The notes below the pieces were generated by a model. The model was not told where the DNA came from. It saw only the letters and a list, made by a program, of their open reading frames with translations, and searched no databases. A stretch of 64,000 bases of DNA from Dromaius novaehollandiae (taxonomy: Eukaryota > Chordata > Aves > Casuariiformes > Dromaiidae), in the NCBI RefSeq assembly GCF_036370855.1, contig NC_088113.1, positions 21,596,501 through 21,660,500 on the forward strand. Direction: 5' to 3'. Below, one piece after another: positions 1 to 64,000 of this stretch (positions are counted from its first letter, which is position 1; the number at the start of each line of letters is the position of its first letter). The position numbers were made by a program, and so were the translations under genes.

Positions 1-23125
<23,125 letters not shown>

Positions 23126-29644: not shown

Positions 29645-30303
29645 TTAATAGTGTCGCTGGTAGGAACCCATAGGTTGCTGGGCTGAGGATCCTGCTCGCC
29701 CCTGGGCCACTGTTTGGCTCACTAGGTGGGAGAGCGCAGGACCACTCTGGATAAGGGTGTCCAAAGCTTTCTGTACACTAGGGTTGTCAAAGTTGATACC
29801 AGAAGATACTGGCCTTTGAGTAGGTACACTGCCAGGAGCAGGCAGGCGATTTTGGTGCTGACCGTAGAGTGACTGAGCTGGTGGAGGTGCTCCGGGTCTT
29901 GGACCTGCATTCCTTGAAGGGCCCTGGAGAGCTGGAAGCTGTGTGCTTGGAGTCTGCAATCTCTGCTGAGCTTGGTTTAAGTTTGCAGCACTTATCTGTG
30001 CTGACCGGGCCTGGCTGCTGGCCATGTTAGCAAAGTTTTGATTCGGAGTGCCACCCGAAGTACCTGCAGAGGCTGCAGAACTGCTGTTTGCTACAGCAGC
30101 TGCTGCTGCTGCCGCTGCCCCACTGTTGAAGAGACTGAGGATTTTTGCCTGAAGCTCCTGCTGAGGATTAGCAGAGGATACCGGAACAGAAGGAGCAGAG
30201 ACCAGAGGCTGCGAACCCTGATGAGCCTGGGAGCTTGGAAGGCTGGACTGACTGCCCAGGGATGATCCTGAAGGTGCCCCCAAAGACTGCCTTGACATGG
30301 GTG
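29645..30303 (-). CDS. NCOA5: NCOA5 coding exon 9, Ser/Gln/Ala-rich tail
   Basis: Encodes PMSRQSLGAPSGSS through QQELQAKILSLFNSG, a run of eight Ala, Asn/Gln-rich sequence, then INFDNPSVQKALDTLIQSGP and MGSYQRHY before TAA. The C-terminal 60 residues match human closely; the middle is divergent and low complexity. Confidence 0.96.
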
Positions 30304-33300
30304 CTGTGAAAGAAAGGGAAGAGGGTTAAAGCTCTGCAAATGCCTTTGAAGAGGCACCTAAAGGAACCAAGTAAGACACCTACTGAAGACACGATTGTCA
30401 GTGACTACCCACACTCTAAACAGGAGAGCTGCACAGCTCTGGGGAACCCAAACCACTTAACAGAATTATTGCCCTCTATGCAGCAGCCAAACCAGTTACA
30501 GGAGCTCTGTGGTTTCCCTGAGAGATTCCAATATGAAAGCTGTGTCACATGAAAGATAAGAGCAGTCTGAGGACTCCTGAGGATACTTCTATCTCAGTAA
30601 GATAAGGCACTGTGTGAGAAAGTTACAGCGCTTGTACTCCCCCGTAACCCCACCATTGTGTTCCTGTCCCAGTCCAGACAGCCCACAGACCATATGATTA
30701 ATAATGCTGAGAAACTTACCCTGCAGAGAATCAGTGCTTCCCCTCAGTAACCTTTCCTTCCGGTCTCTCAAGTAATTAATTACTTTATCAGTCTCCTCAG
30801 CAGTTAGATAGCGATTGTCTGCCAGCAGGTTCAAGAGAGTCTGAATCCCCGGAGGGTGACCTCCTCTGACACCCTCCTCCATGGGCGGTGGGCGCTCTCG
30901 CTCTTGTAGAACAGCTTCATCTGCCATCTTGGCAGCCTGCCTGGCGATCTCCTCACGCTCCTTCTCCCGTGATTCTGTCTTGTAGCGCTCATAATTTCTT
31001 GCCACCAGCACCATGGCATCAGCTTGGGGCATGTTGCGGTGTTCTGCACAAGGAAAAGGAACACTTCAAGTAAACCAAAGTGACGTTAACAGGAGGTCCT
31101 TTGCCTCACTCACCCCAGCACATCTCATTCAACAGACAGTTACCTCTTCGGAATCGCAAGCATAGACTTGGAAATCTCCCTAGGCACACAGTAAAAAGAC
31201 AGTTCAATTTTGTAATTGCTTCAAAAGCCAACAGAAGGCTCAAGACTATCACCCAACAAGTCCATCCTCTGTTCCTTCAATAGTTGAGGGCTCCAAGAAG
31301 ACACCATACCAGCCTAACAAATGTCTTTCTTGCCTCTCTCCCAGTTAAAAGAGAAAGGAACTCCCTCTTCCTCTCTCACAAATTCTCCTTGCTTACACCA
31401 GGAGACTGTTCCAGCTGTACTATTGCTAAATTCTTGGACAGATCCAAAACTTACCCTACGAAGGATGCTAAGGCTTCTCAGAGCAGAGTAAAAAGTGACG
31501 TAAATCTTTTTTTTGGTTCCGTACTGTCAAAGCCTTAATATACTGTGTGTGCATGCAGAAGATGGGGAGGAAGGAAGCACTGGCTGAATTTCATAGTGCT
31601 CATTCTGCTCATTCTCTGGGGGAAATAAGCAGCAATAAAGTTCCTTTATGATAAAGCAAATAATAGTTAATTCCGACTTCTTCTTTTTTTTGCAGCTACA
31701 TTTTAAAAGGTTTTGTGGCCATTATTTCCACCTCACAAAGCACATATGCAAACAGTCCCTAGAACAGAGTTTAAGCTGGCGAATTATATAAAAGACTTTA
31801 TCTTCCAAAAAGGGCGCAAAGCTCTGGGCACTTCTGAAGCCTACAGAGCTACAAATCTTGCCATCCCTCTTCCTCATGACAGGAAACTAAAGTTCATTTT
31901 ACTATCTTGCTTTACACAAGTTGTGCTAGATCTCCCTAAAACTAGCATGCATGAAAAGATGTCCATGTGCGATTCAGCTACAGCATATTTAATTTCTATG
32001 AAGGGCTATGCATGAGTTAATGACTGGGCTTCTGATGAGATCTGATATAATGTTAGATCCAGCGAAGGAAGTTTTTCTTTTTTTTTTTTTTTAAGTAAAG
32101 GTGTTGAGAGTCAAAAACAAGGGCAGTAGAAAGTCCGAGGAAAATGTGGTTGGGCTGTGTTTCTGCAGGAAAAGGAGAGACCCATCCCAACCGCACCATA
32201 TGTTAAAAGAAACTGGACTTCTTCAGTCAGTAAGCAAGCAAAAGGAGTGAATCTGCATTCAGAAGTTAGCTCTCCCAGGTGAATCTGACAAAACCTTACT
32301 TGAGAACACAGTAAGGGAGAAATAACCTTTGAAAGCTCAACTGCAGTCAACAACCCATGTCTGTAAATGGAACGTGAACGGGCCAAAGATCAGAGCAAGA
32401 GGCCGGCTTTCCAAAACCACATTCTGATAAGATGCTTGTTTAAACCTACCCTCAAGCTCACAACAGCCAAGTCACACCCTGTGATGGAAAATGATACGGC
32501 AAGTGTACATGGCGCTAGAGAAGGGGAGCACATATACCCAAACACTTTACAGCTGTATCTTTTTATAACTGTTTCCAGTTTCACAGTCAGATCTTTACCT
32601 TGACAGAATAAGCTATCCCTTTTTTCCTTAAATCTCATTTGGTTATAAAATCTGTCCTGTGATTTGTCACATTGCAAGCACTCTGGCTTTGAGAAAAACA
32701 AGTGATAAACAAAGGTTGGAGTGGTAATACTCAGAAGTCTATCAAAGTAGTTCTATCATTTCTAGAGCTATAGCTCATGACCTGCCCTAAGATGCAAGGG
32801 CTGGTGATGGCAGGTGCTAAAAATACAGCTGAGATTTTCTCTTGGCAGTAATTAAACAGTCCTTTTGGTAAGAGATGATAAAATATTAAAGAAACTTGTA
32901 ATTAATGCTATTCACATTTATGACACAGTGTCAATTCATTAATAACCAGTTCTGTCACGGCCAGGATGAACTTCATCCTGCGTGACTCTGCTTGAAAGAA
33001 AATGTTCTAGAGCAGCACTTTGGGAAGTTCAGAGTGACCACATAGCTGCACAGCCCATTGAGACCTCAGTACCTTGTGGGGTGCCAAACATGATGTTAAC
33101 AGTGCAAGAACGGTGAACTTGATGCTGCTGGGTGATGACAATGGCAAAAGGAGACCCTCCTCTGCTCACGTCGTCCAGGGCTTGCGTCAGTGACATCTCT
33201 GTGTTGAGGAAGATCAGGTCCACTACCATGCCCAGGTCCCGCACTTTTCGCCCCACTGACTCTGCGTACTCCCTACCACAAAGCAAAGTCAGCAGTGGTC

Positions 33301-36300
33301 AGTAAGTCAGTACATACAGAAACAGAAACCCTGGCACATTCATTCTCTCCAGCTCAGATTCACTTTTCTAATGGCTTCATAAAGTTTAACAGAAGGGTAA
33401 TATTAAACCAATCTCATTAGAATAATATAAAAGCCCATACTCTACCCTTATTTTGGTGTGAATCGGTCATTTCAGCTTAACTGAAATAGGTTACAAACAA
33501 GCCTCAGCTCAGCTAAGAAAGTGTCTGAAAAGAGATTTTCACTATTATAAATTTGCTTAAATATAAATGTGTTTAAACTGAACTCATATTAAGTGAGGTT
33601 AGTTATGCCTGCAGAAATCTAACGGGCATAAAACAAAGCAACTAACTTCTATAGGTCAGTTACTTGTTCAGTATCCTAACTGTTCAAGTGTACCTTATTC
33701 CAATTCACTGCAGCATAGACCAACTTCTGGACTTGAAGACGAATTTTCAGAGAATAAGTACCAGTACACATCCACTTGAGTTCTAAATATATTTGTTCTG
33801 CTAGTTGCTTTTTGCTCCTTCCTCAGTTTTTCCCGTATCTACTGTCCTGCACGCTTCCCAAACACAAACCATAGCTCAGATGGCCCCAGCTTAAAGTCTT
33901 CAAACCTTTTGTTAGGATACAGTACTCAGTATCAAAACTGCGATACTAACTGTATATACATTCTGACAAATTTATTGTATGCGCATTCTCAGCTTTTGAA
34001 AAAGGTCCAATTTATCATCTTTGAATGCAAGCATTGTATGTTGCTATTCCCCAACATATACTGGTGATGAAACTGTTTTTCCCCTCTTCCCCAACACTGT
34101 TATTTCAAGGATTTTTAAGTCACACTGATTATACCTCGAAGTCATCCAGGAATCACCTCTGAACAGTTCTATAGCAGGTGACACCAGTGCTTCGAAATCC
34201 ACAATTTATCAACATACTCCAGCTCTTAAGGTCTGTGGCTGTTATAGACCAAAAAGATCCATAGAACCTCGTACTGACCCCTCTGTACAAAAGACTGCAC
34301 AAAATTCTCCTTGTATACAATGTGCTCTATTAAAATATCTTCCAAACACTTTTAGTCACCAAGAGATAAAGAATCTAACATTCCCTTTAAAAATCTGCTC
34401 CAATAGGTAATCAGCTCCATTAAAAGCAAACCACAAAAAAATTATTTCTAATTTCACTTTGTTGCCAGCACTCATTTCCTGTTCTGTCTTCAAACACCAG
34501 ATCAGGCAAGCACCAACTATCCCCTTCTGCCTCACTGATATGGCAGTGTTAAGTTCAACTCTTGATCTTTTTTCAGAAGGGCTAAAGAGACAGAGCTTTA
34601 AGCTTCCCCTCGGTAAACATTTTCTTCAGACCTCAAACCAGATTTATGACTATCTACATCTTTGCTATGCTTCTATATATATATTTTTAAAGATATAGAC
34701 ACCACCAGACTGGTGTTATCACTATGGCACTCCTCTCTTTATACCATATACAGGCATATCTCCCTGCTCCCGACACAGTCTACTCTCCAAACCAAAGACA
34801 CGTTAGCATTTTTGCCACAGCAAGTCCTTTGACTCCTAAAATCCTTTTAAGTCATTGCATTTCAAGAGAAATACGACCTTTCTACAGGCACGGCCTGCAT
34901 TTTTGCTTCAAGATGAAGGACCTCGCATTTAGCTGTAATAAATAAAACACATTTTGTTTGAATGAGGACACTTTAGCAAGAGTTCAGACTGCACCACGAG
35001 AGTCTTTGTTATTTAACATATACTTTTGGTATCATTCATGACTATCTTCAGCAGTGATTTTGTATTTCTTGCGCATTGTATTAATAATGGTATTGAATGA
35101 TGCCTGACTTAGTAACCAATTTGAAAGGAGATCTGAAATGAATACCCCCATCACTCCACACTGGCAACTGCTTTGCACTATGTATTGATGAGCACATATC
35201 AACAAGGTGCATGTCATTCAATCCATGAATAACAAGCACAGGCCACTGTAACCTGCTGTGAAAATGGGTACCTAAGTTTTCAAGAGATGGCGTGGTGGTA
35301 GGTGAGAAGAGGAAAACAAAAGTAAAGCACAAGGTACAAAGGTATTTCTCCATCCCACAATAAATATTCCTAGAACAGCACCAGAAGCACCAGCTTTCTC
35401 AGGGTCCTAAAGCCACTCTCCTCAAAAGCAGCTAGCTGCAAGGCAAACAGCCCAAAAGCAGAAGTAAATTTAATTCTGTTTTCTTCTACTACCAATAATA
35501 AACACAGTCACAACTATTTTCTTACTTTGTCTGCTTATTCACCACTATCACGGAACAATCCACAGGTCTCTCTGCATCAAAACGTCTCTTGATTTCCTCG
35601 TAGTACTGACGGTATAGCTCCTCTCGACGTCGCTCCTCACGCTTCAGACGGTCTGAAAGCAAACCACAGAAACGGACAGAACAAATAATGTCCTTTGGAT
35701 CTGCTTAGAGCAATTAGCTGTAGTGGCCAGTCTGTCTCTAAATCTCAGAACAACCCAGTGTCACAGAACTTAATGTACTGTAGAGATGTTTGCAACCTTC
35801 AGTACTGAAGGAATCTCCCATATCCTTCCAGAGGGAGAATGTGAATCTGCCCATTAAAATGTTAATGTTAACTCTTCAAGGCACTAACCTTCTGAATTCA
35901 CCGGTGCTCTATCAAAATGCTCTTTGTAACGGTCATAGTAAGAGTCATCCTTCCTCCGATAGTAGTCTTCAAGGCGAAGATAACGGTCATATGCTTCATC
36001 TCGCCTGCAACAGACATTTACAGAAGCAGCAGGGGTTCCCATACGTCAATATGATCTCATGCAATAACTTCTGCCAATGCATCACATGCAGGCCTTCCTC
36101 AAGTTTAATTACTGAAGTGTCCACCTGCTCCCCCCATGACATAAAGCAGGTACCCAACTGTCCCCAACCAGAGGAATTATCTGAAATTACCTGAAATTAT
36201 CTGAATTACCTGAAAGCCTAACACCACTCAAACCAGTATAACCATGGAGGCAGGAACTCCAAAAAATCGTGTTGGCAAATACGATCCTGTGTAGATTACC

Positions 36301-39300
36301 TATACAGAGGATCCCGCGGATCCCTCACATCCCGCGGATCCCTGATGTCACGTGGATCCCTCATATCTCGTGGATTCCTCACATCGCGCGGATCCCTGTA
36401 TCGATCATACAGTGGCTCCCGTGGGTCACGAAGATCTCTAACATCACGAGGGTCCCGCAAGTCTCTTGGATCCCTGATATCTCGGGGGTCTCGAAGATCT
36501 CGGGGGTCTCGCAGGTCCCGTGGGTCCCTGTGGTCTCTGGCATCACGCATATCTCTAGCTCGAATATCTCGAGCATCTCTGGAATCTCGCCCGTTTCTAC
36601 CATCTCTGCCGTCTCTCGGGTCTCTTCGTGGGCTCCCCCGAAGAGGGGAGCGATCGCGTCTGGCATCTCGGCCATCCCCATAGGCATATTGCTCTCTGAG
36701 AAAAATACCAGGGAAATTCTATTAGAGCACATGAATATCGTTACCACTAGATCTCTTACCTGAGGTGCCAGAGTGACCCTTCTCTCAGCTGCTGAATCCT
36801 CCCTCCTATCCCACAACAGCAAGAATTGCCCAAAAACATTTGTCAAAGCACCCTGGAGAAGCTTCTTAATTCAAATGTTTATCATAACCAAACAAGTCCC
36901 AGAAAGTTCTGTACTGAAGCATCACTAAAAATGCAGGACACCTGCAGAAGAAGTGAACAGGCACTTAAGAAACCATCCAAGATCATTCCAAGGCCTCCGG
37001 CCTCTAAAGGCAGCAACAGATTATCTATCAGATGTGTTTTTGTGCATCCTTTGAGAGAATTCAAGGTGCTGTAGCCTAACAGGTGAGTATGGCATAACTA
37101 GCAGCATTCAAAGGACCCATTAAATTCACTACTTGATGACAGCAGAATTCCTGAAATAATTTGTTATTGGCATGTGACTAAAAAAAGAGCTTGTTGCGAT
37201 CCAAGAAACAGTCGTTTCCATGTTAATGTTGGTTTTGTACTGCCAGCAGAGAGCAATGGTAGCTACTGAACGTGTCCTGACTTTGAAGAGATGGTTCCTG
37301 CAGAAAGTCAGTCTTATCTCTACGATGCCCCATATTAAGAGGGCACTAAACGCAACCAGCACTGTATCACCACCAGCAGAATTGTGTCAAATCTGAATGA
37401 TCCATTTCATTCAGACTTTGCACTGTACCATCTTCAGAGGCAAGGAAGAGTGATACTCCATTCTTCATCTTTTCCAAAAGGTAGATTTTTTTTCCAGGTA
37501 GTACTTTGTTTTCCAGAGAAAACATAACTCTCACTCTAGCCTAAGTTGAACATACAAAAAAGTCTTGTGAAGAAACTACTGAGTTTCACATGCTTAGAAC
37601 ATCCTTTCCCCAGGATATTGACAAGTATTGAAAACAAGGTTTTTTTAATTTTTTTTATTTCCAAAACCTGACAGACATCTAACGTCCTCTAGCTGACACT
37701 AATCTAGTTTCTGAAAGACATACAGAACATAGGTTTGTTTCTACTATAGCACATTCACTTAGTAGCCAGTTGGAGACAACAGCAGCGAGTCAGCTAATCA
37801 AGTTTAAATATCAGGTAGAGCAAAGAGTAAATTAGAAGGATGTACAGATCCTCTGCATGGATTTTGGCAGTTTAGGCACCCCCTCATCCTGGGGGGATAC
37901 ATAGAATTGTGGCGTTCTCTGTTTTTATGTCAGATAGAAACACAGGATTGTGGCATTCTCTGTTTTTATGTCAGATAGAAACACATCTTGCAACAAACTA
38001 CAGCATTGCCCCTGAGAGCGTACATAATCTTCTCCTGTAAAAGAAGCACTGTAATTGCACACACATTTGCTTCAAGTGTGAACTGCCTCTGTATCTCAGG
38101 CCCACAAATCAGCCTCATGTTTCTGCCTGTGATCTGTGGTGTAACTACACACCATATGCGATGCACACTGTCTCCCCTTGCCCCCTCTCCCCAACCTAAA
38201 GTGAATGATAGCAGCAGCTCAGGAGAAGCTTTAACCAGCTGTGATGAATACTCCGTATCCAATCTTCCTGTAGCTGTAAGATTATATAGCACAACAGCCA
38301 GATGCAGCATAATTGTTTTGCATATGACATTTATTCCTTTTTTTTTTCTGCTGTAACAGGCCATATTCATTATCTGCAATGACAGAAAGACCCAGAATGA
38401 ACAACACATTTACGATTCTTGCAACAGAACTACAGACGTGGTATTGGTGCCTCTGGTCTGGCAACTTGCACCACTGCCCTGCTGCTTGCAGAGCTACAGC
38501 AGCATTAAGGCCCAACAGCCTTCTGTTCCTGTGTCTCCATCGCCAGGGCCCAGCTCCTGCAGTGTCAGCACCATTGCCTGCATCTGCTGTCGCTTGGGAC
38601 TCGGTACCGCTGGTGCGGCACCATCGCCTGGGCCTGCTGCGTGGCTTGGGACTCGGTGCCCTGGCATCAGCAGTGGCTCACATGCCTCAGTATGATCCCG
38701 AGTCCAGTGTCCGTTGCCTGCGCACCTGCAGCGTCGCCCAGGACCCCATCATCACCGTTTGCGCCTGTGGTCTTGGTTGGGACCCAGAGCCCCTGACATC
38801 AAACCATCGTTGCATCTGCAGCACCAGTCACAGCCAAATGACTGTGGCAGCAGCACCTACTGCTTCAGCAGCTGGGGCGGTGGTCCAGTCCACAGTCCAA
38901 CGCCCAGAGCATCGGTGCCCACAGCTCACACGCCTGCAGTGCTCCTCAGGGCCCAAGGCCTGTGGCCCACAGCACAAGCATCTGCTGCTTGCACACACGC
39001 AGTGTCAGACAGGCCCCAATGCCCGTGGCATCAGTGCCTGCTGCTTGTCCTTCTGCAGTACTGTCTGTGGCCCAACACCCGTGGCACAGGCACCCACCAC
39101 TCGCAACTGCGGTGCTGCTCAATGCCTACAGCATTAGGCAACTGCAGTGCCGCTCGGGCCCAAGACGTGGCAGTGGCTGCTGCTTGTTCACTTGCAGTGT
39201 TCCTGGGGGGCCCTGCCAGCAATATCAGCACATCCGACACTGCCCAGACCCAATGCTTGCAGCATTACGCCAGCTACTCTCGTGTTTGCAGGATCTGCAA

Positions 39301-42300
39301 CATGAACCCCAGCTGCATGCCTGAAGCATTTCCAGGGCCCGATGTGCATTCACTGGTCTTTGCAAATGCATTTGGCGCTATGCCGGATAAGTGCAGCATA
39401 CACAAGAGATCTAATTGCAATTCTTGGCATCTACTCCTTCCATTTTTGGTAGTACGTGTCTTTTTAGCTGCACATATTTTTCTCCAGTTTTTGATAATTT
39501 AATGAGCCAAATTAATACAGCATATCAGACACTTGAGAGCTTGATGACCTTCAAGTTCAATACTTAACTCCTTTTTGTGTGCAGAGCCATAAAAGATGCA
39601 TGGCTTATGCCAAATGCAACCACAGCGCGTCTTCTTTTTCCATATCGCACTAGGGAGCGCAAGAAATAGAAGTCTTCTTCCTGTGGCAGGAAGATCCATG
39701 TCTTCTCCACCTGCTTGTGACTTCACACGTACAGGATGTGCTGGAGTTGAACACACTGTACCTACTGAAGGGTGGGAAACAGGAGAAGCAGGCAGACTCG
39801 CATCTTCCATATACTGGCAATGCAAGTGCACATGTACAGTACAATAAAGAGACATTTACTCTGTTCTGTGCTTTGCTCACACACTCCTTTTCCAGTCTCA
39901 TTTCAGCACAGGAAGCTTTTGACATCAAGATGCAAAATCCTGAAGTCCTCTGCAGCACAGAGAATGCTACAGTCACTTGGCATTCTCTATAGATGCCTTG
40001 GCTTCTCCAACACTTGAGAATCGGGAGCAAACATCAAGTTTATTCTTCCTTACAGGTCTTGTACAACCTGTGCTGCAAAACAACACTTAGTTGTAGTAAC
40101 AGCAACAAACACAAAGTTTCCCTTGTGCCTCCTGAGGTGTTAGAGACAGCAAGGCCGTTAGAGGTGGAGCTGCCACATCCTGCTTGTTTCACTTGAGCGT
40201 CTCCATTTGACTGGGGAGGTGGCGGTAGGGAAGAGACAGACATTTAGCACTGACAAGTGGGCTCATGCCCTAAAAGCCTGACCTTCCTAGTATAACGCAT
40301 CGCTTCCAGGTACTTTACCTTCGTGCTGGACTGGACCTTGATGAAGCCTTATTCATATTTCTTCTTTCCGCTGCTTTATTAATATCTGTAAAGAATAATC
40401 AACCCATCTGTTCAATGCTATGGAACAAAAAAAAAGAGCATCAGCACAATTCAAATGAAAGCAACTTAAGTTCAGCGACATCCAGATGGTGCAAGAAAAT
40501 CCATTCAGCAGAGAGACATTGTCACTTTGACAATTTTTATTAAGTTTAGAAAGTACAATGCAATAAAATTTTCATGGATTTTTCTGACTTCAAAATAGGG
40601 TGGACAGCTTGGGTGAAACTTTAACCCCTCATGTTCAGGCCTACATCCAGACTCTTCATTCCATAAGAGAATCTCTTTCTTCTGCAGTCTATGAGCAAGC
40701 AGAATGCAACTCATGGACTCTAGGAGAAAAAGCAGAGTCTGAAAACCTTTGCAAATGGAAGTTGTTGGCCAGCACAGTCTTAAATTCACAGCCAGTCCTG
40801 TTCAATGGAGCATGCTGCTACCCTTGTTGAAAAAACTCCAAGGGTTCTCAAATGGCACATTCAACTGCCTTCCAAGGGACTGCTGGAGCAAACTGTACAA
40901 CCTCCGCCACTGAGGAAAGTAGATCCAAGGAGCCCGGAGCAAGAGCTCCTTATGAAGTCAACATGGTGCACTCAAAACACCACTGTCAGCAAGGCAAACT
41001 GATGCAACAGATTAGAAATTTGAAAATTGGTTGCTTCTGAGTATCTCCATGAACAACACCCTAAGGTGAAATAGAAGAAAGTAAAGGAAAGCTGAAGAAA
41101 GAGTCTTGTCCTCAACCAGAAAATAAAAAGTTGCCCAAAACTAATAAGGCCAACAGTGCTCTATTGTGAAATAAAAAGCCTTCTCTAACAGCTGACTGAA
41201 GGCAAAGTAGTGTACTTGAGTGGGGGCAAGAACAAACAGAAATGATTTCTGACATTTTACTCTGAGCCTTTTAAGGAAAAAAGGCAAAAAAACAAGAAAA
41301 ACAAAAACCAAGAAAACAAACCTAGGTCCTATCCACTCTGACAATCTATCAATAGCTAAAAATACTAGTTATTTACATTACACACTTTCAAAGCTCTTCA
41401 AGTGAATGAACACGTTATAAGGCCTGTAAGCAGACTCAGTCTTAATATCTTCCATAACTTCCCAAACTATCCTTGATGACTTTCAAGACTAAAATTACAA
41501 TTAATCACTTAATTCCAATCTTTGCTCTTGTTGTAAATCAAGAAATAGCGTGTTTCTTTTCACAGTAAGAGAGGCAAGTGCAATGTGAACTTTAACTAGG
41601 AATCCAGCATGGTAACATTCACAGGACTATAACAACACTCCTCCGGATTATAAAAATCGCATTGTCCACTATCAGAAGTTAAATTGATGGACATTTACTG
41701 CCTACATAGTTTTCCTCATTGAAGATATGAAGACACATATATGGAAGTATTAGAGTGTAATGCAAAACTGGAGTTACTCGCCCAAAGTTTGACCTTTGTG
41801 TTCTAACAATTACATTTAACACTCAAACTGTGTACCTGAAGTAATTGTACTCCTTGCATTTCTTTTTTAGTGGAGATTTTTTCTTCTCCCCCCTTCAAGT
41901 CAAATTTTCTCTTTAAGCAAGACACTATCTGCTTCCTTGGTTTAAGATTTTTATTTTCTGTTTTAAGATGCCATTGCAGAAAGCTAGATTATGATTTTTT
42001 TAAAAAACATTCAGTATCATACATTTATTTCAAGATTAAAAAATCAGCTGCATTTAAATCTTAACAAAATATTTTACTGAAAGAAAAAACACCTTTCACA
42101 GGGATTCTTTTCTTGTGCAAAAGGAACAGATTTAATAACATTTTATTTAATGCCAACAGCATTTACACATTAAATATTTGAACATTAACAAAATGACTTC
42201 TGAGAAAAAAATGAAAGTCTATCTTGTAGGATTTTGAGATGACAGGGTCACTGTAATCATACAGTGCAACCTTTTGAATAACACAAGTGACAAGACTTTC

Positions 42301-45300
42301 TTGAATTACATTCCTATCAAGTCCAACAGTTGCATTGAACTAGAGCTTATCTTTTAGCAAGACATCCAATTCTGATTTAAAAATTGCCAGAGACACAAAA
42401 TCCACCAAAGCTCCAATAAATTGTTCCAAATGTAAATTATTTCACTGTTAAAGAAAACTAATTATTTCCATTTAAGGACTTGTCATACCTATGCCTACTA
42501 GATTAAAATGCAATTTTATCTCCAGGACAATATTTAACATACAGATCACATCACCTCTTTATCCTGAGGCTTTCACTATGGCTTGTTCTTCAGTTTGTTA
42601 AGCTCCTGATCTTTCTGATGCTTCTGCAGTTTAGCATTATCCTTTTTGAATTATGCATACCAGAACCAAACAAAGTATTCCAGCAGCAAAAACCCACAGG
42701 TACTATAACTTCTTACTTAGAAATCTTTTTTTTTTTTTGTACAGCTAAGGATCACAAAAGCAATCCTGCTAAGAGCAGCATATTAGCTTCCTGGATTCAA
42801 GTAATTATTACCTACCAATAGCTCCTTTCAGGAACTATTTTTGAGGACAAAGTCCTCCACACTAAGCACACTCCGCATTCTATTTCACTAGACGCAGAAC
42901 TTCGCATTTGGCTTTACTGAAAGCTCAGTTTTGTTTGCATCCAGCTTAGGAAGAGACCCAGGTCATTTCACTATCAGTGACTCAACATTCATTATTCTAT
43001 TCTCTTTAAAACATGATTGTGTGTTTTCTTCCCAAGTCGCTTATGAAAAAAAAAAAAAAAACACTACTGCATGGCCAGGAACCAGTCCTTCTAGAACACC
43101 ACCCAAAACACTGAGTAACTCCATCTACATTACTTTGAGATATGTTTTAAATTCATTTAACACTATGCTGCTTCCAATTGCTTTAGTTTCTTAATCATAG
43201 AGTATCTTGCAGAAATCTTCTACATGGACACTGCTACTTTTACCCATAAAACTTGTAACATCATAAGAACAAATGAGTTTGACGAGATTTATTTTGACTG
43301 ACATTAATTGCATTCACTTCTTATTGAGCGTCAGATAAAAGAATCCATTATGTTATCAAGGACTGATGCCAGGCTGACAGCTTATAGTCTGCTCAGTCCA
43401 TTTACACTGCCTCGTTGACGCAACTGCAGTATTTTTCCCGGTCCTTGGAAATTCCCTCATTTTCCAAGGTTTAGGGAAAAACAATATTAATAGCCTAGGG
43501 AGATCTTCATATAGTTTAACCTCACAGATGCAAGTTAGATGTAATATTTTGGAAAGGTCTAGTTTTGGTAGTTGCTGCTTTCTCTTTTTCCATTTACTTA
43601 CTACTGAAGTGGAAGCTGCATGAAAAACAAAGTGTTCTGCCTCTTCAAAAACAGAGAGCAGACACATTAACTGAGGGCCAGGTGGTCTTCTCCAATAAGA
43701 AGTCTTATAATTTCCAAATGATCACACATTAACATCTGAGACACCTGTAGTTTTTCCTATTTAAGCTTACTGTCTTACAACAGTGCCCATAATCTCTTGC
43801 ATCTTTCTACCCTCCTTGTCCCTTTGCCACCCTTTCCCTCTTCAGGTTTATACTTGTCACTGTACACAAACCTTCCCCTAATTTATTTATTGCGCCTTTT
43901 ATTCCCTTCTAAGTCAAATATTTTCTTTTATGTTACCATAGGCTTACTTTGGAACTAAATTTTTGGTTATGTTTAACAGATTACTCTTAAATAGATTTCT
44001 AACCATTCATTTCTGTTTAAGTTTGCTCCCAGCAAGTTTAGCAAAATTTTCATCTTTATGAAAAGAGATTTTTTTAAACACCTAGTATTTGTAGTGCTAC
44101 TTAAAAACTAATTTCACATGTGCAAAAAAAATTCCAAGTTAGGAACACATATCTAACAAACCCCTAAGTTCCGTGACCAGTTCCTCTGAACCCGTCAAGA
44201 TGAAGTGTTTTTAAAATAAGGGCATGAAGTTTCAGTGAACACTTTGTAGGGCTTACATGTTGAACAACTTCTTACATAGGATTATAGATTTATTAAAATA
44301 TTAATACATTAAAATAACATCAGAGAAAGACTGAGGTAGCAAGAGAAAACACTGCAGATGGATCACACAGCACTTAGAGCAAATAACTCAGAAGGAAAAT
44401 ACATACCTAGTAAAAATGATTTTAGAGTAATGCTAGGCAGGTTTCACACAATGATCCTTCTAGAGAGCTTTAAAACAAAAGCACTCTTTCTACCAGAATA
44501 CATGCTAGGGTCAGTAGGAGAGCATGGATCAGTTTTCCTTACCTAATCTATACCCTTTAAAAAGGCGACCCTTCTCACCGTCCAGAGCGGCCTGGACGTC
44601 TTCTAGACGTTCATACTGGACGAACCCATAGCCATGGAACATGCTGAGGGCTGGAAAAATTAACAGCAGGGCAAGACCAGTTACAACTAAGGGACAGTAC
44701 TATTCCACCCCGGTCATTACATAACCCCATTAGATAGAACAAGCAAAGGGGCATTACGCAGAAACATCTACTCAAGTTCCTTGGGAAAACCAAGTCTAAG
44801 ATCAAAATGCAAAGTTTAAGAAATTTAAAATATTAGGCAATATTACAAAATAGGTCAAGTTCCTTCTGACAAGACAGTGACCAAAAGAAGCCCATGAAGT
44901 GACCAAAATTTGGTTAAGAGACTCCGAAATCACTTGAAAAAATAGATTTGCTTGGTGTAACACCACAGCTCAACCCCAAAAGACAAAACATAGCTCATAT
45001 ATGCATTAGGTTTCAGTTATACTGAAGGAATTATAGTTTCAGAGAAAATGCAAGTAGAGAAAGTTATCTTTAAAAGGTCACATTTTAGGGAAAATATTAG
45101 CCATTCCTCTCAACACCATCAGACAGCATTTGACAGGCACGAATGTTATACTTCTGACTGAATTCCCAGCCACAAAAAGGCATAAGATAAAATACTAACC
45201 CCTTATTTTGCCATATTTTGAAAATATCTCTTCCATTTCTTCACGAGTCATGTGGTCTGTGGGCAAATTGCCGACAAAAAGTCTTCTCTCTAAATCCTGT

Positions 45301-45362
45301 GGATTGGTGCTGTTAGTGAAGTCGCTCTGTTTGATGCTATTGCTCTTGCGTCCTCGAGCCAT
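29645..45362 (-). CDS. NCOA5: NCOA5 nuclear receptor coactivator 5, long form with N-terminal RRM, 9 coding exons
   Basis: NCOA5 (CIA) is a nuclear co-regulator of oestrogen receptors and other nuclear receptors. Nine phase-matched coding exons (listed separately) total 2160 nt, 719 residues. Domain order: RRM (about 27-97; RNP2 LFVGNL 28-33, RNP1 GYGFVQY 61-67); Arg-Asp-Pro repeat region (about 113-245); charged KREERRREELYRQY helix; class II tRNA-synthetase anticodon-binding-like domain (about 308-415); LxxLL receptor box LLNLL (462-466); Ser/Gln/Ala-rich tail ending GSYQRHY. Human NCOA5 (579 residues, from memory) starts at the equivalent of M101, so the RRM is extra relative to it. The start at 45362 has Kozak A at -3 and G at +4 and no upstream ATG in its exon. 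Confidence 0.95.
30720..31043 (-). CDS. NCOA5: NCOA5 coding exon 8, LxxLL motif
   Basis: Encodes EHRNMPQADAMVLVARNYER, the acidic/basic helix EKEREEIARQAAKMADEAV and IQTLLNLLADNRYLTAEETD. LLNLL (462-466) is the nuclear-receptor interaction motif. A Pro triplet (residues 444-446) replaces human Gly-Gly-Pro. Confidence 0.97.
31044..33072 (-). other. NCOA5: NCOA5 intron between coding exons 7 and 8
   Basis: AT-rich, non-coding. Contains a T-run near 32080. No exon, RNA gene or recognisable transposon. Confidence 0.7.
33073..33272 (-). CDS. NCOA5: NCOA5 coding exon 7, anticodon-binding-like domain
   Basis: Encodes KEYAESVGRKVRDLGMVVDL through SCTVNIMFGTPQ (residues 326-392), almost identical to human NCOA5. 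Confidence 0.97.
34330..35010 (-). mobile_element. Ancient CR1/L3-type LINE relic in NCOA5 intron
   Basis: Diverged antisense CR1 phrases on the plus strand, notably GACCTCGCATTTAGCTGTAA followed by AAATAAAACACATTTTGTTT. No reading frame survives. Lies in the intron between coding exons 6 and 7. Confidence 0.45.
35526..35652 (-). CDS. NCOA5: NCOA5 coding exon 6
   Basis: Encodes DRLKREERRREELYRQYYEE, IKRRFDAERPVDCSVIVVNK and QT. Charged helix leading into the anticodon-binding-like fold. Confidence 0.96.
35889..36004 (-). CDS. NCOA5: NCOA5 coding exon 5
   Basis: Encodes RDEAYDRYLRLEDYYRRKDD and SYYDRYKEHFDRAPVNSE, matching the human EGSYDRYLRMDDYCRRKDDS region. Confidence 0.95.
36300..36695 (-). 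CDS. NCOA5: NCOA5 coding exon 4, Arg-Asp repeat region
   Basis: 132 residues dominated by RDPRD, RDLRD, RDIRD and RDVRD units, opening EQYAYGDGRDARRDRSPLRG and ending RDPLYR. Low-complexity mixed-charge tract typical of splicing and RNA-associated proteins. The opposite strand is also open here but is only an antisense shadow. Confidence 0.95.
37906..37985 (+). repeat. 41-bp tandem duplication
   Basis: Two copies of ATTGTGGC(G/A)TTCTCTG... through AGATAGAAACACA, beginning at 37906 and 37947, one mismatch seen in the core. Confidence 0.9.
38440..39330. repeat. GC-rich degenerate tandem repeat of unknown family
   Basis: An 0.9-kb island of higher GC inside the AT-rich NCOA5 intron. It contains recurring but diverged phrases (GCCTGCTGCTTG, CATCTGCAGCACC, GGCCCA...GTGGC) at roughly 50-70 bp spacing. 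Reading frames of about 250 codons cross it on the plus strand but encode only Cys/His/Ala/Gln-rich low-complexity peptide. Family not recognised. Confidence 0.5.
40319..40385 (-). CDS. NCOA5: NCOA5 coding exon 3, RRM end and human-type start Met
   Basis: 67 nt encoding DINKAAERRNMNKASSRSSP and AR. MNKASSRSSPARR aligns with the human N-terminus MNTAPSRPSPTRR, so the ATG at 40356-40354 is the counterpart of the human start codon. Confidence 0.94.
40386..44542 (-). other. NCOA5: NCOA5 intron between coding exons 2 and 3
   Basis: 4.2 kb, AT-rich; largely occupied by the CR1 relic at 42220-43900. The rest (40386-42219) holds nothing recognisable. Confidence 0.7.
42220..43900 (-). mobile_element. 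Long, decayed CR1-type LINE relic in NCOA5 intron
   Basis: About 1.5 kb of antisense CR1-like sequence. Landmarks are GAACTTCGCATTTGGCTTTA (about 42898), GGACTGATGCCAGGCTGACA (about 43360) and GATGCAAGTTAGATGTAATA (about 43527), in the order expected in the reverse transcriptase part of CR1. Many indels, no open frame. Same orientation as NCOA5, between coding exons 2 and 3. Confidence 0.55.
44543..44650 (-). CDS. NCOA5: NCOA5 coding exon 2, second half of RRM
   Basis: Encodes ALSMFHGYGFVQYERLEDVQ and AALDGEKGRLFKGYRL. RNP1 is HGYGFVQY. Resembles the hnRNPC/RALY RRM, whose sequence also runs on to LDIN at the next exon. Acceptor TTCCAG, donor GTAAGG. Confidence 0.93.
45200..45362 (-). CDS. 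NCOA5: NCOA5 coding exon 1, N-terminus and first half of RRM
   Basis: Encodes MARGRKSNSIKQSDF, then RRLFVGNLPTDHMTREEMEE and IFSKYGKIR. The exon probably begins at 45386, after a pyrimidine-rich acceptor. Donor G|GTTAGT, phase 1. Confidence 0.92.
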
Positions 45363-46680
45363 TTTGCTTTCGTTCCAAATCCAAGTCTTCGCAAAAAAGA
45401 AAAACGGCCATGCATATCATTTCAATCCATGACATTAAAATTAAACTGGAACAAGATTAAACTTAACAGCTTTGCAGACTAGAAGCCAACTGGGTCTGCT
45501 TGACGCAAGCTTCACTCCAGAGAAATCTTTATACAAGGGAGATGGGAATCTGGCAAAAATGTATACTGCACCACTTAGGTTCAGTTTTTCTGTATTGTTG
45601 AAAGGTAGTAAACCTAATCTATTTTCAGAATGCTTTAAAGATTTAACTCCAAACTGAAACACAAATAAAACTTATTTTCTACTAAAACTTCTTAATTCAA
45701 GCTTTTCAATACATCCATTACTGTCATATCTATTCCCTCAGTTCACTGGTAAGAAGTGTTGGAATTCATGTAATATTTTAATAAGCAGAAAGAAAACAGT
45801 TATCTTAACAGCACATAATAGGACCCAAAATACTTCAGTATAGGCTTTGAATGAGATAAAGGAGCATTTTCTAAAGGCTCTGAAGTGACCATACTTGGAT
45901 CACTTCACCAAATGTGAAGTCTTAGCTTTACAGTACCAGAAAACACAATTTCTCATTCACACCAATACTAAACAGCATATCTTTGTGCCCATCAAGATGT
46001 CAACTCCTACTGAAGTCGGGTCCACAACTGGGAATTTAGCCACACCCACATAAATTCAGTGCTGCTAACTCATTTCCACTAGGACTATGAAAGTGCAACT
46101 TTGCTCCAGCTTTGTCTGCAATAATATAGGTTAACAATCAGCAACATTCACTGCATAAACTTACTGAAATAGTCATAGCTAAAATACTCAGGATTCATAC
46201 TTTCTGCTTTAAAAGTCACTATAAGAAAACTTAGAAAAAGTAAAAAACACTGAAACTTGCAAGGGGAACTTGCAAGATTGAAAGTTTTTTAATACAATAG
46301 TCATCACCCTTCCCACACATTCATCTACAGGAGTGCAGGGTTGGGATTTTCTGTTTATAGGGATAGAAGTAACCTGAAAAAAAGCTCATGAAATTAATTT
46401 GAGTACATCAATAGAAGCTTCTACTGTTAATCATGAGATACCCTATAGCCAGCACACTACGCAGCAATAAACTATGTTGACTACAATTTAGAAGTAGCTT
46501 CTAAACAAGCATATCAGATTTCCTAAATTATAAGATGATTTTACATAGGTATTTCTACAACACTAATTAGCATGAGAAATAAAACACTCTAGGATGTGAA
46601 AAAAGATCATCAACTCTATATTCCTATCACTTTTCTCCTTCTTTTAGGAGGCCTTGTGGAAAAGCAGGAGAGAGGACACC

Positions 46681-46747
46681 TCCTAGTCTAATCATCTTCC
46701 TAGTGAGCTGAACTCCTAGTCTAATCATCTTCCTAGTGAGCTGAACT
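46681..46747 (+). repeat. 33-bp tandem duplication
   Basis: TCCTAGTCTAATCATCTTCC...GAGCTGAAC occurs twice, starting at 46681 and 46714, with no mismatch seen. In the NCOA5 5' UTR intron. Confidence 0.9.
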
Positions 46748-46974
46748 GCGAGAACAGGGTGGAGGTTAAAACAAACAAACAGCTCTTATACCACAGCTGC
46801 TTCAACATCTTCCTGTAAGGCAAGTTTGTTCTCCTCCTCTCCCCCCACCATTTTTACCTTCCCCCTCAGAAGTCTCAAATCTTGACCCCCTTTTCTTTGC
46901 AGGAGCACTACACAGTTCTCCTCTATTCTGCTATTGCAGTTTAAGTTTGCATGAGTTGAGGGGAAGATAGTTTT

Positions 46975-47140
46975 CATATAATGAGTTAGAAGAGACCTCT
47001 GGAGGTCATCTAGTCCAACTCCTGCTCTAAGCAGGACTAACTTCTAAGCCAGATCAGCTGCTCAGGACTTTGCTGAGCTGAGCTCGGAACATTTTCAAGG
47101 ATGGAGATTCCACAGCCTCTGTGAGCACCTGGTCACAAAA
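46975..47140 (-). mobile_element. CR1 LINE 3' fragment
   Basis: Plus strand reads GAGACCTCTGGAGGTCATCT AGTCCAACTCCTGCTC ... AAGGATGGAGATTCCACAGC CTCTGTGAGCACCTG, the well-known antisense of avian CR1 3' ends. Much less decayed than the other CR1 relics here. Confidence 0.85.
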
Positions 47141-48391
47141 CATCACTCATGTTCGCAATCTTCAGACACTACATTTACCCCATGCAGCCACCATCAACAA
47201 GACCTGCAATGTCCTGATGGCAGGACATTTTAATTCAGTGTCAAAAGCAGTAAGAAATTCTCTCATCTTTTCCTTGGTGGGAATGGGGGGTGGGGGAGTC
47301 GCTGGAGGAAGAAAGAACAAGAACTTTCTATGTGATGAAAAGCTGGAATATCTTCCGACTTGCAGGTTGCTTAGAAAATAAAGCAATAAATCCCAAATGC
47401 TAATCCAGAGTGAATTAATAGAGGGCTTTCACATAAGGGCATTTACTGCTGCTCACCATTTTCCACTCGGTGGAACACACAGCTAAGGGCCATTTAATAA
47501 TCACGAGACCAGAAGTGGATGCCACCTCAGCTTTAGGCATGCTATACCAGGTGAGCTAGTAACCTCACTAGCAAGTCTCTTTCTGGGAATTTAATCAGGG
47601 AAGCTGAACACGTGGCTAGACAGTTTAAAGGTGATAACATCTCAGTGCAAAAAAGGGACAACCGGGCTCGGCAGGTTACTACAGAAGAACAGCTAACGGC
47701 AGCTCACCTGCCAGTAAACCCTCCACAAGTTAACCAAAATCATCTCTCTCACTAAAGCTGTAAATTTAAAAACAAAGTTTTATTTTACTAAAAGTGCTAC
47801 AACTTCAGAAGGCAACACACCGTTGAAGTAGGACACCAAAACCAACGTGGCGCAACGGAAACATCATGCACGAGTCTGCAAGGAGCTCCCGGCCGCGGAG
47901 GGGAAAACAAAACGAAAACAACCCCCCAAACAAAACCCAGACCGGAACGCCACCACCGGGACACCAGCGCTGCTGGGACAAGCGGCACCCCCGACGCCGG
48001 CCGGCGGCTCAGCCCGCGGGGCGAGGCCTGACGGGCCCCGCCGGGGCCCCAGCGCGCCCAGCGGCCGCTCCCGGGCAGCGCCGCCGCCCCGAGCCAGGCC
48101 GCTGCCCCAGGGCCGCCCCGGCCCTCCCGGGAGAGGGCGCGCGCCCCGCGGCCCGCAGCGCTCCCACGCCGAGCCGCGGCGCCTGCCCCGCGCTGCCGGA
48201 CGGAACGGCGGAGCCGCCGCTCGCAGTCCGCGGCCTCGGCCCGGCCCGGGCGGCGCCGAGAAGGACGCAGACGCGCCGCGAGGTTTGCTGTGGTACGTCT
48301 TTATTCGAGCATGCCGCGCCCCTCGCAAGGCCGAGGCCGAGGCCGAGGCCGCGCCCGCCGCCGGCAGCCCCCGGCCCCGCCGCGCACTTAC

Positions 48392-48560
48392 CGCCGCGCC
48401 GGGCCCGCTCCGCCGCCCGCCGCCGCCCGCCAGGACAAAGGCGCCAACCGCCGCTGCCGCGCGGCGCTGTCGCAAGGAACGGGAGGAAACGCCGCCGCCG
48501 GAAGGGCGCCGCCCCGCGCTTTACGGCGCGGCGCGCTGACGTACCGCCGCCCCCCGGCTC
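48392..48560 (-). other. NCOA5: Probable NCOA5 non-coding first exon
   Basis: A consensus donor GCG|GTAAGT on the minus strand (GT at 48391-48390) lies in a CpG island upstream of the start-codon exon. The 3' border of the exon is therefore well supported; the transcription start (upper border) is only inferred from promoter motifs. Confidence 0.5.
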
Positions 48561-48596
48561 CCGGCAGGCTCCGCGGCCGCGCCGCCGCGAGGCTCC

Positions 48597-48610
48597 ATGG
48601 GACTTGTAGT
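48597..48610 (-). promoter_or_regulatory. ZNF143/THAP11 (SBS) promoter motif
   Basis: Minus strand reads ACTACAAGTCCCAT, close to the SBS consensus ACTACAATTCCCA, a common element just upstream of housekeeping transcription starts. Confidence 0.6.
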
Positions 48611-48734
48611 CCCACCACTGCCGCCCGCCGCCGCCAGGGGGCGCCGCGAGACCCGCCGCCGCCTCGGGCGGGCGGGGCCGGGGCCGGGGCCGGTGTGGGG
48701 CGGCCCCGCGGCCCCCTGTCCCCATCGGGCCGGT

Positions 48735-49310
48735 GTGGGGCGGCCCCGTGCCCCCGTCGGGGTGGCGGCGGGGCTGCCCGCACGTCCCCATGCCCCCGCC
48801 CCGTGTGGGGCCTCCCCGTGTCCCCGTGCTCTGGTCTGGGGGTCCCGCACCCGCATGTCCCCGTCGGGGTGGCCGTGGGGTGTCCCCGTGCCCCGTGTCC
48901 CTGTGCCCCAGCCCCACATCCCGGTGCCCCGTGCCCCGGTCACGGAGGTCCCGCACCCCTGTGCCCCTGTTGGGGTGGCCGTGGGGTGTCCTCGAGCCCC
49001 AGCCCCACATCCCGGTGCCCCGTGCCCCGGTCACGGAGGTCCCGCACCCCTGTGCCCCTGTTGGGGTGGCCGTGGGGTGTCCTCGAGCCCCAGCCCCACA
49101 TCCCAGTGCCCCGTGCCCCGGTCACGGAGGTCCCGCACCCCTGTGCCCCTGTTGGGGTGGCCGTGGGGTGTCCTCGAGCCCCAGCCCCACATCCCGGTGC
49201 CCCACGCCCTGGTCAGGCGGCACTGCATCCCTGTGTCCCCACTGGGGTGGCCGTGGGGTGTCCCCATGCCCCACATCCCGGTGCCCCGTGCCCGGTCAGG
49301 GAGTCCCGCG
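48735..49310 (+). repeat. 91-bp minisatellite, about 5 copies
   Basis: CACGGAGGTCCCGCACCCCT recurs at 48941, 49032 and 49123 (period 91), each with GGGGTGGCCGTGGGGTGTCC. Outer copies diverge. Intergenic, NCOA5-CD40. Confidence 0.9.
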
Positions 49311-50084
49311 CCCCGTGCCCTGTCCCCCGCCGGGGCGGGCAGGGTCTCCTGCGGCAGCCCCTCGCCGCGCGGGGCCAATGTTGCTCCTCACGCAGTAGCC
49401 CCGGCTCCTCGCACCCCTTCCGCGGAGCGGCGCCCACGGCCCCACGGCGCCCGGGCCCCACGGCGGCACCCACGGGGCCAGGCGGGCGCCGGGCTGGCGG
49501 GGGTGACGCGGCCACGGGCCCGTCCGCACCGTGCCCCACCGTGCTGTGTCCCTTGGGGAGCGAGGTGCGTCCCGCGTGCCGCCAGCGCCCGGGCACGGGG
49601 GACTTCCCGGGCCGCCCTCCGCGAGCCGGGCCCAGAAATCCCCTCCCCACCTTGGCCGCCGCTCTGTGCCCCGAGCCTCCCCTGGGGCCGCGCGCGCTTT
49701 CGAGCCGCTCGGTTTTGGGAAGTGACGGCGGCGTGGGGAATCCAGCGCGTGGTTCCCGCCGCGGGGGGGGGCGCAGCGTCCCGTCCCCGCTGGGATCCGC
49801 GGCGGCGGCAGGCTGCGGCGCGCTGCCCCTCGCCCATCCCGGCGTCGGCCTCGCCGTGGGGCCGTCGCGCCCGGCAGTGGGGGCTCGGTGTGGTCGTGGC
49901 ACCCGGCGAGGACCCGGCACCCGGGCAGCGTGCGGTGGCGGGGGCGGCGGGCTGCGGCACGGCCACGGTGCGGGGTCCACGCAGGGCGACCATGGGCCAG
50001 GGCGGCTGTGTCACCGCGGGGCAACTACGTGGGACATGACGGCTGCGTGGCTGCAGCCCGGCGGTGGGACGGGACGTGGCCACG

Positions 50085-50702: not shown

Positions 50703-51477
50703 TTGCACTTCTGCTTCCAGAGTGAGCTGGCAGGGCCAGTGCCAACGCTCTGCTCCGCGAGGTCCCCGGGGGTCCTGCCCTCGGCCCTGTGCCCGGGAGG
50801 CGCAGGCAGCGTGGAGGGCATGCGGCATGGGCAGGGAGCCGGTCACCCATCCCGTCCCCCGGCACGCGCGCGGAGCCATGCGCGAGGACACGGCGGCTCC
50901 AACCCCGGCTGCTCCCTGATGCCCGGGCAGAGCTGCGGCAGGGCCGGCGCCGAGGCCTGGGAGCTGCCGGGCTGCCGGCGCCCAGGGAGGGCTGCAGGGT
51001 GACGGGCTCCGGGATGGGCGCATGCCCTGCTGCCCCGGTGCCGCCATGCACCGGCCATGCAGCTTGCTGCACCGGGGCTGCACCGGCAGCGCGGCCTCCC
51101 CCGGCGCGGGGCAGCCAGGCACGGCGAGCCCTGCGGGGTCTGCGCCGGTGGGATTCCCCCGTCCGGGACTCCCCGGCCGCTCTTCCACCCCGCCGTGCTG
51201 CTGGTGCGGCCCGGTGCCGGGCGCCCGGCCGTGGTGCCGCTCGCCGAGCATCACCGGGCAGAGAGGGCCCGGAGGACCGGCACCGCGGGGTGCGGGTGGG
51301 CAGGGGCAGGAGGGCTCCCGCGGCCCAGCGCGGCAGGCTCTGCAGAGCTGCTCCGGCTGCCCCTGCCCGTGAGACCGGGGGGGACAGACCCATCCTGGGG
51401 CTGAACCCCCCTCGCCCTCTGCTCTCCGCCCTACGCCCCCCGGGCAAGCTGGCATCCCCAGGGGCTGGGGGTCCTGA

Positions 51478-52600
51478 GTCCCATAGGACCATCCCCAGGG
51501 GCCGGGGCTCGTGAACCTGGGGGTCCATTCCCAGGGGCCGGGGCTCGTGAACCCATGGGACCATCCCCAGGGGCCGGGGCTCATGAACCTGGGGGTCCAT
51601 TCCCAGGGGCCGGGGCTCGTGAGCCCCATAGGACCATCCCCAGGGGCCGGGGCTCATGAACCTGGGGGTCCATTCCCAGGGGCCGGGGCTCGTGAGCCCC
51701 ATAGGACCATCCCCAGGGGTCCATCCCCAGGGGCCGGGGCTCGTGAGCCCCATAGGACCATCCCCAGGGGTCCATCCCCGGGGGCCGGGGCTCGTGAGCC
51801 CTATAGGACCATCCCCAGGGGTCCATCCCCGGGGGCCGGGGCTCGTGAGCCCCATAGGACCATCCCCAGGGGTCCATCCCCGGGGGCCGGGGCTCGTGAG
51901 CCCCATAGGACCATCCCCAGGGGTCCATCCCCGGGGGCCGGGGCTCGTGAGCCCCATAGGACCATCCCCAGGGGTCCATCCCCAGGGGCCGGGGCTCGTG
52001 AGCCCCATAGGACCATCCCCAGGGGCCGGGGCTCATGAACCTAGGGGTCCATTCCCAGGGGCCGGGGCTCGTGAGCCCCATAGGACCATCCCCAGGGGTC
52101 CATCCCCGGGGGCCGGGGCTCGTGAGCCCCATAGGACCATCCCCAGGGGTCCATCCCCGGGGGCCGGGGCTCGTGAGCCCCATAGGACCATCCCCAGGGG
52201 TCCATCCCCAGGGGCCGGGGCTCGTGAGCCCCATAGGACCATCCCCAGGGGTCCATCCCCAGGGGCCGGGGCTCGTGAGCCCCATAGGACCATCCCCAGG
52301 GGTCCATCCCCGGGGGCCGGGGCTCGTGAGCCCCATAGGACCATCCCCAGGGGTCCATCCCCGGGGGCCGGGGCTCGTGAGCCCCATAGGACCATCTCCA
52401 GGGGTCCATCCCCGGGGGCCGGGGCTCGTGAGCCCCATAGGACCATCCCCAGGGGTCCATCCCCGGGGGCCGGGGCTCGTGAGCCCCATAGGACCATCTC
52501 CAGGGGTCCATCCCCGGGGGCCGGGGCTCGTGAGCCCCATAGGACCATCCCCAGGGGTCCATCCCCGGGGGCCGGGGCTCATGAGTCCGGGGGACCACCC
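51478..52600 (+). repeat. 51-bp minisatellite, about 22 copies, abutting the CD40 promoter
   Basis: Unit includes CATAGGACCATCCCCAGGGG, TCCATCCCCGGGGGCCGGGG and CTCGTGAGCCC. CATAGGACC starts at 51700 and 51751. A few shorter copies with ATGAACCTGGG break the phase at the 5' end and near 52030. 51 = 17 codons, so frames stay open on both strands. Confidence 0.97.
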
Positions 52601-63400: not shown

Positions 63401-63535
63401 TACAGTCCGCAGCGGGGGCAGGACTGACGAGGCGGATCTGTACGGCAGGCGTGGGGGTGCCGGGATTCCCCCCGCTGCCCCCGACCCACCTGCGCCTCCT
63501 CCCCTGTGCTGGTGCGGTGGGCAGGGATGAGCACG

Positions 63536-64000
63536 CACGGCCGGCCCGCGGCAGCACCGCGCACGCACAGCCGGCCCTCGGGAGCACGGTGCACGCACAG
63601 CCGGCCCTCGGGAGCACCGTGCACGCACGGCCGGCCCTCGGGAGCACGGTGCACGCACAGCCGGCCCGCGGGAGCACGGTGCACGCACAGCCGGCCCTCG
63701 GCAGCACCGCGCACGCACAGCCGGCCCGCGGGAGCACCGTGCACACACAGCCGGCCCGCGGCAGCACCGTGCACGCACAGCCGGCCCTCGGGAGCACCGC
63801 GCACGCACAGCCGGCCCTCGGCAGCACTGTGCATGCACAGCCGGCCCTCGGCAGCACCGCGCACGCACAGCCGGCCCTCGGCAGCACCACGCACGCACAG
63901 CCGGCCCTCGGGAGCACCGCACACGCACAGCCGGCCCGCGGGAGCACCGTGCATGCACAGCCGGCCCTCGGCAGCACCGCGCACGCACAGCCGGCCCTCG
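63536..64000 (+). repeat. 30-bp minisatellite, at least 15 copies, runs off window end
   Basis: CACGCACAGCCGGCCCTCGG plus (G/C)AGCACCG(C/T)G repeats every 30 bp with single-base variants. Both strands are open in several frames because 30 is a multiple of 3. Confidence 0.97.

Follow-up and report, generated by a model that had tools for sequence, protein, structure and literature searches.

A 64,000-nucleotide stretch of the emu (Dromaius novaehollandiae) genome (contig NC_088113.1, positions 21,596,501 to 21,660,500; the window, in whose numbering positions are given below) was found to contain a single minus-strand gene occupying 29.6-48.6 kb. This gene is very probably the orthologue of NCOA5, encoding a 719-residue nuclear co-regulator with an ancestral HNRNPC/RALY-type RNA recognition motif (RRM) as its first domain. 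RRMs are generally RNA-binding domains with a beta-alpha-beta-beta-alpha-beta fold; the standard human NCOA5 is not known to have one, its start being the methionine equivalent to Met101 of the emu protein. The gene structure, the open frame, the homology of the RRM and an intron shared with HNRNPC, RALY and RALYL were read directly from the DNA. The shared intron, a new observation, suggests HNRNPC-type ancestry of the NCOA5 RRM. It is also new that the human-equivalent start codon lies in the exon encoding the last strand of the domain.

The RRM is encoded by three exons, all on the minus strand. Exon A (45200-45386, with a probable acceptor gcgaag/ACTTGG and the ATG at 45362; here and below slashes mark splice places) encodes the N-terminal arm, the RNP2 motif LFVGNL and helix 1, and ends in the donor GGG/gttagt. 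Exon B (44543-44650, ccag/CCCTC...TTAG/gtaagg) extends from the RNP1 motif HGYGFVQY through GYRL. Exon C (40319-40385, acceptor ttacag/ATATT) carries the last RRM strand and the tail DINKAAERRN, followed by the human-equivalent start methionine (ATG at 40356) and NKASSRSSPARR; it aligns with DINLAAEPKVNRGK of hnRNP C. The joined RRM peptide reads MARGRKSNSIKQSDFTNSTNPQDLERRLFVGNLPTDHMTREEMEEIFSKYGKIR/ALSMFHGYGFVQYERLEDVQAALDGEKGRLFKGYRL/DINKAAERRN. Both junctions are in phase 1: the codons for A55 and D91 each have their first base in the preceding exon. The motifs LFVGNL, HGYGFVQY and LDIN occupy residues 28-33, 60-67 and 90-93, the last spanning the 44543/40385 junction, and all three stacking aromatic residues of RNP2 and RNP1 (F29, Y62 and F64) are present. 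A preliminary description of the region had proposed these motifs and the exon coordinates 45362-45200, 44650-44543 and 40385; reading of the splice sites showed that the coordinates were exact and that the phases matched at both junctions. Also correct was its proposal that the NCOA5 reading frame continues, ahead of the human-equivalent methionine, into a complete RRM of the hnRNPC/RALY type.

The joined peptide matched the Pfam family RRM_1 with 55.4 bits (E 5.6e-15), and exons A and B each exceeded the curated cut-off of 20.7 bits singly (26.5 and 25.7 bits). A profile built from the RRMs of RALY, HNRNPC and RALYL of the same genome, with NCOA5 left out, matched only two of the 1341 open reading frames (ORFs; stop-to-stop, at least 20 amino acids) of the whole window. 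These were exons A and B, which fell at the consecutive profile positions 1-43 and 45-76. Chance origin of the match was ruled out because of the RRM_1 scores and because the profile picked exactly the two RRM exons.

Among solved structures the nearest relatives by sequence were hnRNP C (2mxy, E 2.6e-20; 1wf2, 2.6e-18) and RALY (1wf1, 1.1e-19), followed by the Msx2-interacting protein (E 1.2e-10) and, as a much weaker match, the yeast Nab3 RRM (2xnq, 2l41; E 3.7e-10). In these sequence comparisons 2mxy and 1wf1 aligned without gaps through the NCOA5 RRM. The alignment with hnRNP C began within the arm S..TN...P at the N terminus (residue 13), crossed the 44543/40385 junction and reached R99 without a gap, and the hnRNP C counterpart of the exon C tail DINKAAERRN was DINLAAEPK.

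When the RRM peptide was compared with its own genome, 18 matches were obtained at E of at most 1, three of them being the NCOA5 exons themselves. Among the 15 others, three HNRNPC-type loci scored 61.4, 61.1 and 55.6 bits and the remainder at most 30.8 bits. By-eye comparison with the solved sequences identified the locus on contig C38 as HNRNPC (identical over SNVTN...GQVL) and the locus near 1.93 Mb of contig C16 as RALY (few differences); the locus on contig C2 was labelled by elimination, and is presumably RALYL. The NCOA5 RRM was 40-44 % identical to the three over 78-80 aligned columns, without gaps, and the three were 79-80 % identical to each other. A phase-1 intron after the leucine equivalent to L90 was found in all four genes. 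The RRM exons of HNRNPC, RALY and RALYL close with a leucine codon and one further G, after which the introns open with GTGAGC, GTAAGT and GTAAGT, respectively; exon B of NCOA5 ends likewise (TTA G/GTAAGG), and the exon at 40385 brings (D)INKAAE. At the HNRNPC locus, where the next exon was viewed, the continuation (D)INLAAEPK was found farther along. In none of eight other RRM loci of the genome (L001-L007 and L015) was there an intron at this place, the frame reading straight through. Because the intron is shared with HNRNPC, RALY and RALYL, the RRM can be joined to exon C of NCOA5 independently of RNA, and common descent of the NCOA5 and HNRNPC-type RRMs is suggested. The resemblance extends to a short beta2-beta3 loop, the S..TN...P arm and the ungapped homology. 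NCOA5 differs in having an additional intron inside the RRM, after KIR, which is missing from the other three, and in the body following the RRM, which is NCOA5 sequence. A leucine-zipper-like body after the RRM is typical of the HNRNPC/RALY group.

Several observations weigh against reading the gene as NCOA5 with an HNRNPC/RALY-type RRM. The control loci of the intron comparison were not independent, L002, L003, L004 and L006 being mutual near-copies, so that the number of independent cases is smaller than eight. Of the other loci, L009, L010 and L014 are NCOA5 exons, L008, L016 and L019 represent the L015 gene or a near-copy of it, and the comparison was made without L020 and without L017 and L018, which match the earlier part of the domain only. 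The best tree of 12 short RRM rows (L003, L004 and L006 left out; L017, L018 and the second L015 domain included) did group the NCOA5 RRM with RALY, HNRNPC and RALYL, at values of 58/4.8, which amount to no support. A genome-wide RRM_1 scan did not list the NCOA5 locus among its matches, because only half of the domain lies in each exon and scores were computed for 150 of the 363 candidates. The first residue of RNP1 is H60 in NCOA5; this position is usually occupied by K or R, and the replacement may weaken RNA binding. Finally, salmon NCOA5, which has been termed RRM-containing and was recovered in a pull-down on CpG oligonucleotides, is represented by three listed peptides, all of them outside the RRM (excerpt of PMC3598971); the salmon RRM thus rests on sequence and not on peptides.

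The remainder of the gene was assembled by translation. Nine coding exons read jointly gave 720 codons with a stop at the end only, in one frame, and all eight introns were of the GT-AG type. Exon C is followed, on the same strand, by the exon with the RD-repeat region (36300-36695) and by exons at 35889-36004, 35526-35652 (start of the anticodon-binding-like domain), 33073-33272 (the domain itself) and 30720-31043 (its end, and LLNLL). The last coding exon (29645-30303) ends with ...GSYQRHY and the stop codon. Residues 311-430 matched the structure 1v95 (nuclear receptor coactivator 5), which we take to be the human NCOA5 protein (CIA), with an E value of 7.6e-69, indicating the same anticodon-binding-like domain. 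RRM_1 was the only Pfam family found at E of at most 1 in the 719-residue protein. By-eye reading of the translated protein revealed an LXXLL-type receptor motif, LLNLL, within TLLNLLADNRYL; the presence of LxxLL in NCOA5 has been reported (excerpt of PMC5746116).

Base composition was counted in 20 bins of 500 bases over 40001-50000. Three bins, at 48001-49000 and 49501-50000, qualified as CpG island (GC above 75 %, CpG above 0.8 of expectation), all upstream of the RRM exons. The two bins of 48001-49000 had a GC content of 83 and 81 % and CpG observed/expected ratios of 1.12 and 0.83, while the bins up to 48000 had 29-50 % GC and CpG of at most 0.72 of expectation. In the intron preceding 40385 no CpG island was detected, all bins of 40001-45000 having CpG of at most 0.41 of expectation. 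A consensus donor GCG/GTAAGT is located at 48391, within the island, and defines a probable non-coding first exon (48392-48620, minus strand), 48620 being the edge of the stretch examined. The stretch joined from 48620 contained two ATGs only, that of the MARGRK start and an in-frame one near the upper edge, followed by a stop; no out-of-frame ATG occurred between 48620 and 45362. The sequence contexts of the two possible starts are aaaATGG (45362) for the RRM form and aatATGA (40356) for Met101, of which the former is better by the Kozak rule. On this basis the most likely site of transcription initiation is the CpG island, at about 48.4-48.6 kb. Transcripts from there would traverse both RRM exons ahead of 40385, and these exons, spliced to the exon with the human-equivalent methionine, would be translated from MARGRK. 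An RRM-less form starting at Met101 could arise, as in zebrafish, by skipping of both RRM exons or from a downstream promoter. Such an emu short form would start with MNKASSRSSPARR, much as the human protein does.

The preliminary description had itself named a separate gene as one finding that would overturn it. A separate gene, or a short RRM-only transcript, in front of NCOA5 is very improbable. The unspliced frame of the exon ending at 44543 soon stops (GKEN and a stop codon), and an RRM-only peptide could be made by intron retention. However, the last strand of the RRM is located in the NCOA5 exon at 40385, where it matches DINLAAEPK of hnRNP C, the intron is placed as in HNRNPC, RALY and RALYL, and the CpG island lies upstream of the RRM exons, no bin of 40001-45000 reaching a CpG value above 0.41 of expectation. 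The shared intron and the homology across the 44543/40385 junction led us to reject the separate gene. Even less credible is that the RRM exons are a decayed, untranslated relic, as the downstream position of the human start might imply: there is no stop and no frameshift, the splice sites are GT-AG, RNP1 and RNP2 are complete, and the identity to the three paralogues is 40-44 % over 78-80 gap-free columns.

A lesser, though real, chance belongs to the alternative that the RRM exons are genuine and yet the emu mainly produces the short form with Met101 as its start, like the human protein. The RRM form would then be made seldom or in the germ line only, as the ovary bias of the zebrafish long form suggests. 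Skipping of both RRM exons would remove the first start codon and leave the Met101 frame whole, and zebrafish testes chiefly use a proximal start site whose product lacks the RRM, exon retention being confined to the ovary among the tissues examined (excerpt of PMC9501657). Against this, the intron before 40385 has no CpG island, the start codon of the RRM form has the better context, and the intact frame together with the full set of RNP aromatics suggests that the RRM is in use or has become idle only recently.

That the domain had been overlooked, as the preliminary description suggested, was borne out only in part: the RRM is indeed encoded by NCOA5, but it is not new, having been described in fish (excerpts of PMC9501657 and PMC3598971). 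Zebrafish ncoa5 has one RRM; the ovary makes the long form (ncoa5-L), and in testis an N-terminal truncation lacking the domain predominates. An alignment of the NCOA5 RRMs of ten fish species, zebrafish and nine others, has been published (excerpt of PMC9501657). The fish long form, that of salmon included (excerpt of PMC3598971), likewise has an N-terminal RRM; a short form devoid of it has been described for zebrafish. Since the basic fact was already published for fish, the gain lies in the extent and the origin of the domain. Nor was the claim that the RRM recasts NCOA5 as an RNA-binding co-regulator a fresh one. In mammals NCOA5 is investigated both as a co-regulator of nuclear receptors and as a cancer gene. 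Mammalian NCOA5 was enriched on RNA probes and was present in a published dataset of RNA-binding regions, with the authors' warning that the enrichment is possibly indirect (excerpt of PMC12533644). Its binding to SAFB1 was RNA-independent (excerpt of PMC10901741). NCOA5 also binds TBX18, in a paper whose text does not contain the term RNA-binding (PMC6071992); the terms RRM and RNA-binding are likewise absent from the text of a paper on gibel carp NCOA5 (PMC9275722), and two further papers mention NCOA5 once each, in a reference (PMC4736624 and PMC4825013). Searches of the open-licence literature, judged by titles and the beginnings of abstracts, found no report of an NCOA5 RRM in birds. A literature search for neosin, which we take to be a fly relative, together with Drosophila found nothing.

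As to transcription, RNA binding, U preference and a switch between two forms, we infer the following. F29, Y62 and F64 of NCOA5 align with F19, F52 and F54 of hnRNP C, a protein that prefers U-rich RNA. Because these aromatics align and the arm preceding the sheet is conserved, binding of a short, U-rich single strand is the best guess. The RRM sheet would bind short single-stranded nuclear RNA, probably U-rich. Further contacts, and the recruitment of nuclear receptors, would fall to the RD-repeat and anticodon-binding-like regions. The RRM would hold the co-regulator on nascent or structural nuclear RNA, with the LXXLL-bearing body meeting the receptors at the same time. With regard to origin, we see roughly even prospects for a scenario in which NCOA5 arose as a sister of HNRNPC, RALY and RALYL or captured the RRM exons together with the intron, the domain was kept in fish and in the emu lineage, and mammals silenced it by starting inside the last-strand exon, the human 5' untranslated region still spelling the RRM tail. 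If the vertebrate ancestor had an hnRNP C-type RRM, RNA binding would be the original job of NCOA5 and the human protein a shortened one; if mammals silenced the domain, work on mammalian NCOA5 has used a truncated, derived form. The shared intron provides a clear test of the origin of the RRM.

On the left side, tail to tail with NCOA5, the window contains plus-strand C-terminal exons of an SLC12-family gene (20513-20695 and 20889-21008), probably SLC12A5. In human the neighbours of NCOA5 are, we assume, SLC12A5 (tail to tail) and CD40. CD40 was not confirmed as the right-hand neighbour, the TNFR_c6 profile giving no match within the window; at about 52.8 kb, the place expected for CD40, there is a plus-strand ORF with a signal-peptide-like start, MKLLGLPGLLCALLLGVSAAS. 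Elsewhere in the genome, RRM and SLC12 matches on contigs C33 and C35 came in pairs, with equal or near-equal scores and positions offset by about 13.7-13.8 Mb. This looks as though a large chromosome were present twice or there were two very similar sex chromosomes.

The first intron of NCOA5 contains the end of a repeat (46990-47140, minus strand), presumably resembling CR1, of which a 23-base word had 79 exact copies in the genome, compared with none for the reversed control. Twelve of the 79 copies were located on one strand of contig C22 (4.64-5.19 Mb), within 0.56 Mb and about 30-90 kb apart, a pattern suggestive of a large tandem segmental array. A GC-rich minisatellite at 51453-52585, mostly with a 51-base unit, is open in several frames, and its long ORFs look like repeat artefacts. 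Further long GC-rich tandem arrays were found at 58405-59106 (unit of 68 bases), 56776-57479 (5 bases, TGGGA), 63531-64000 (30 bases) and 18758-19332 (69 bases).

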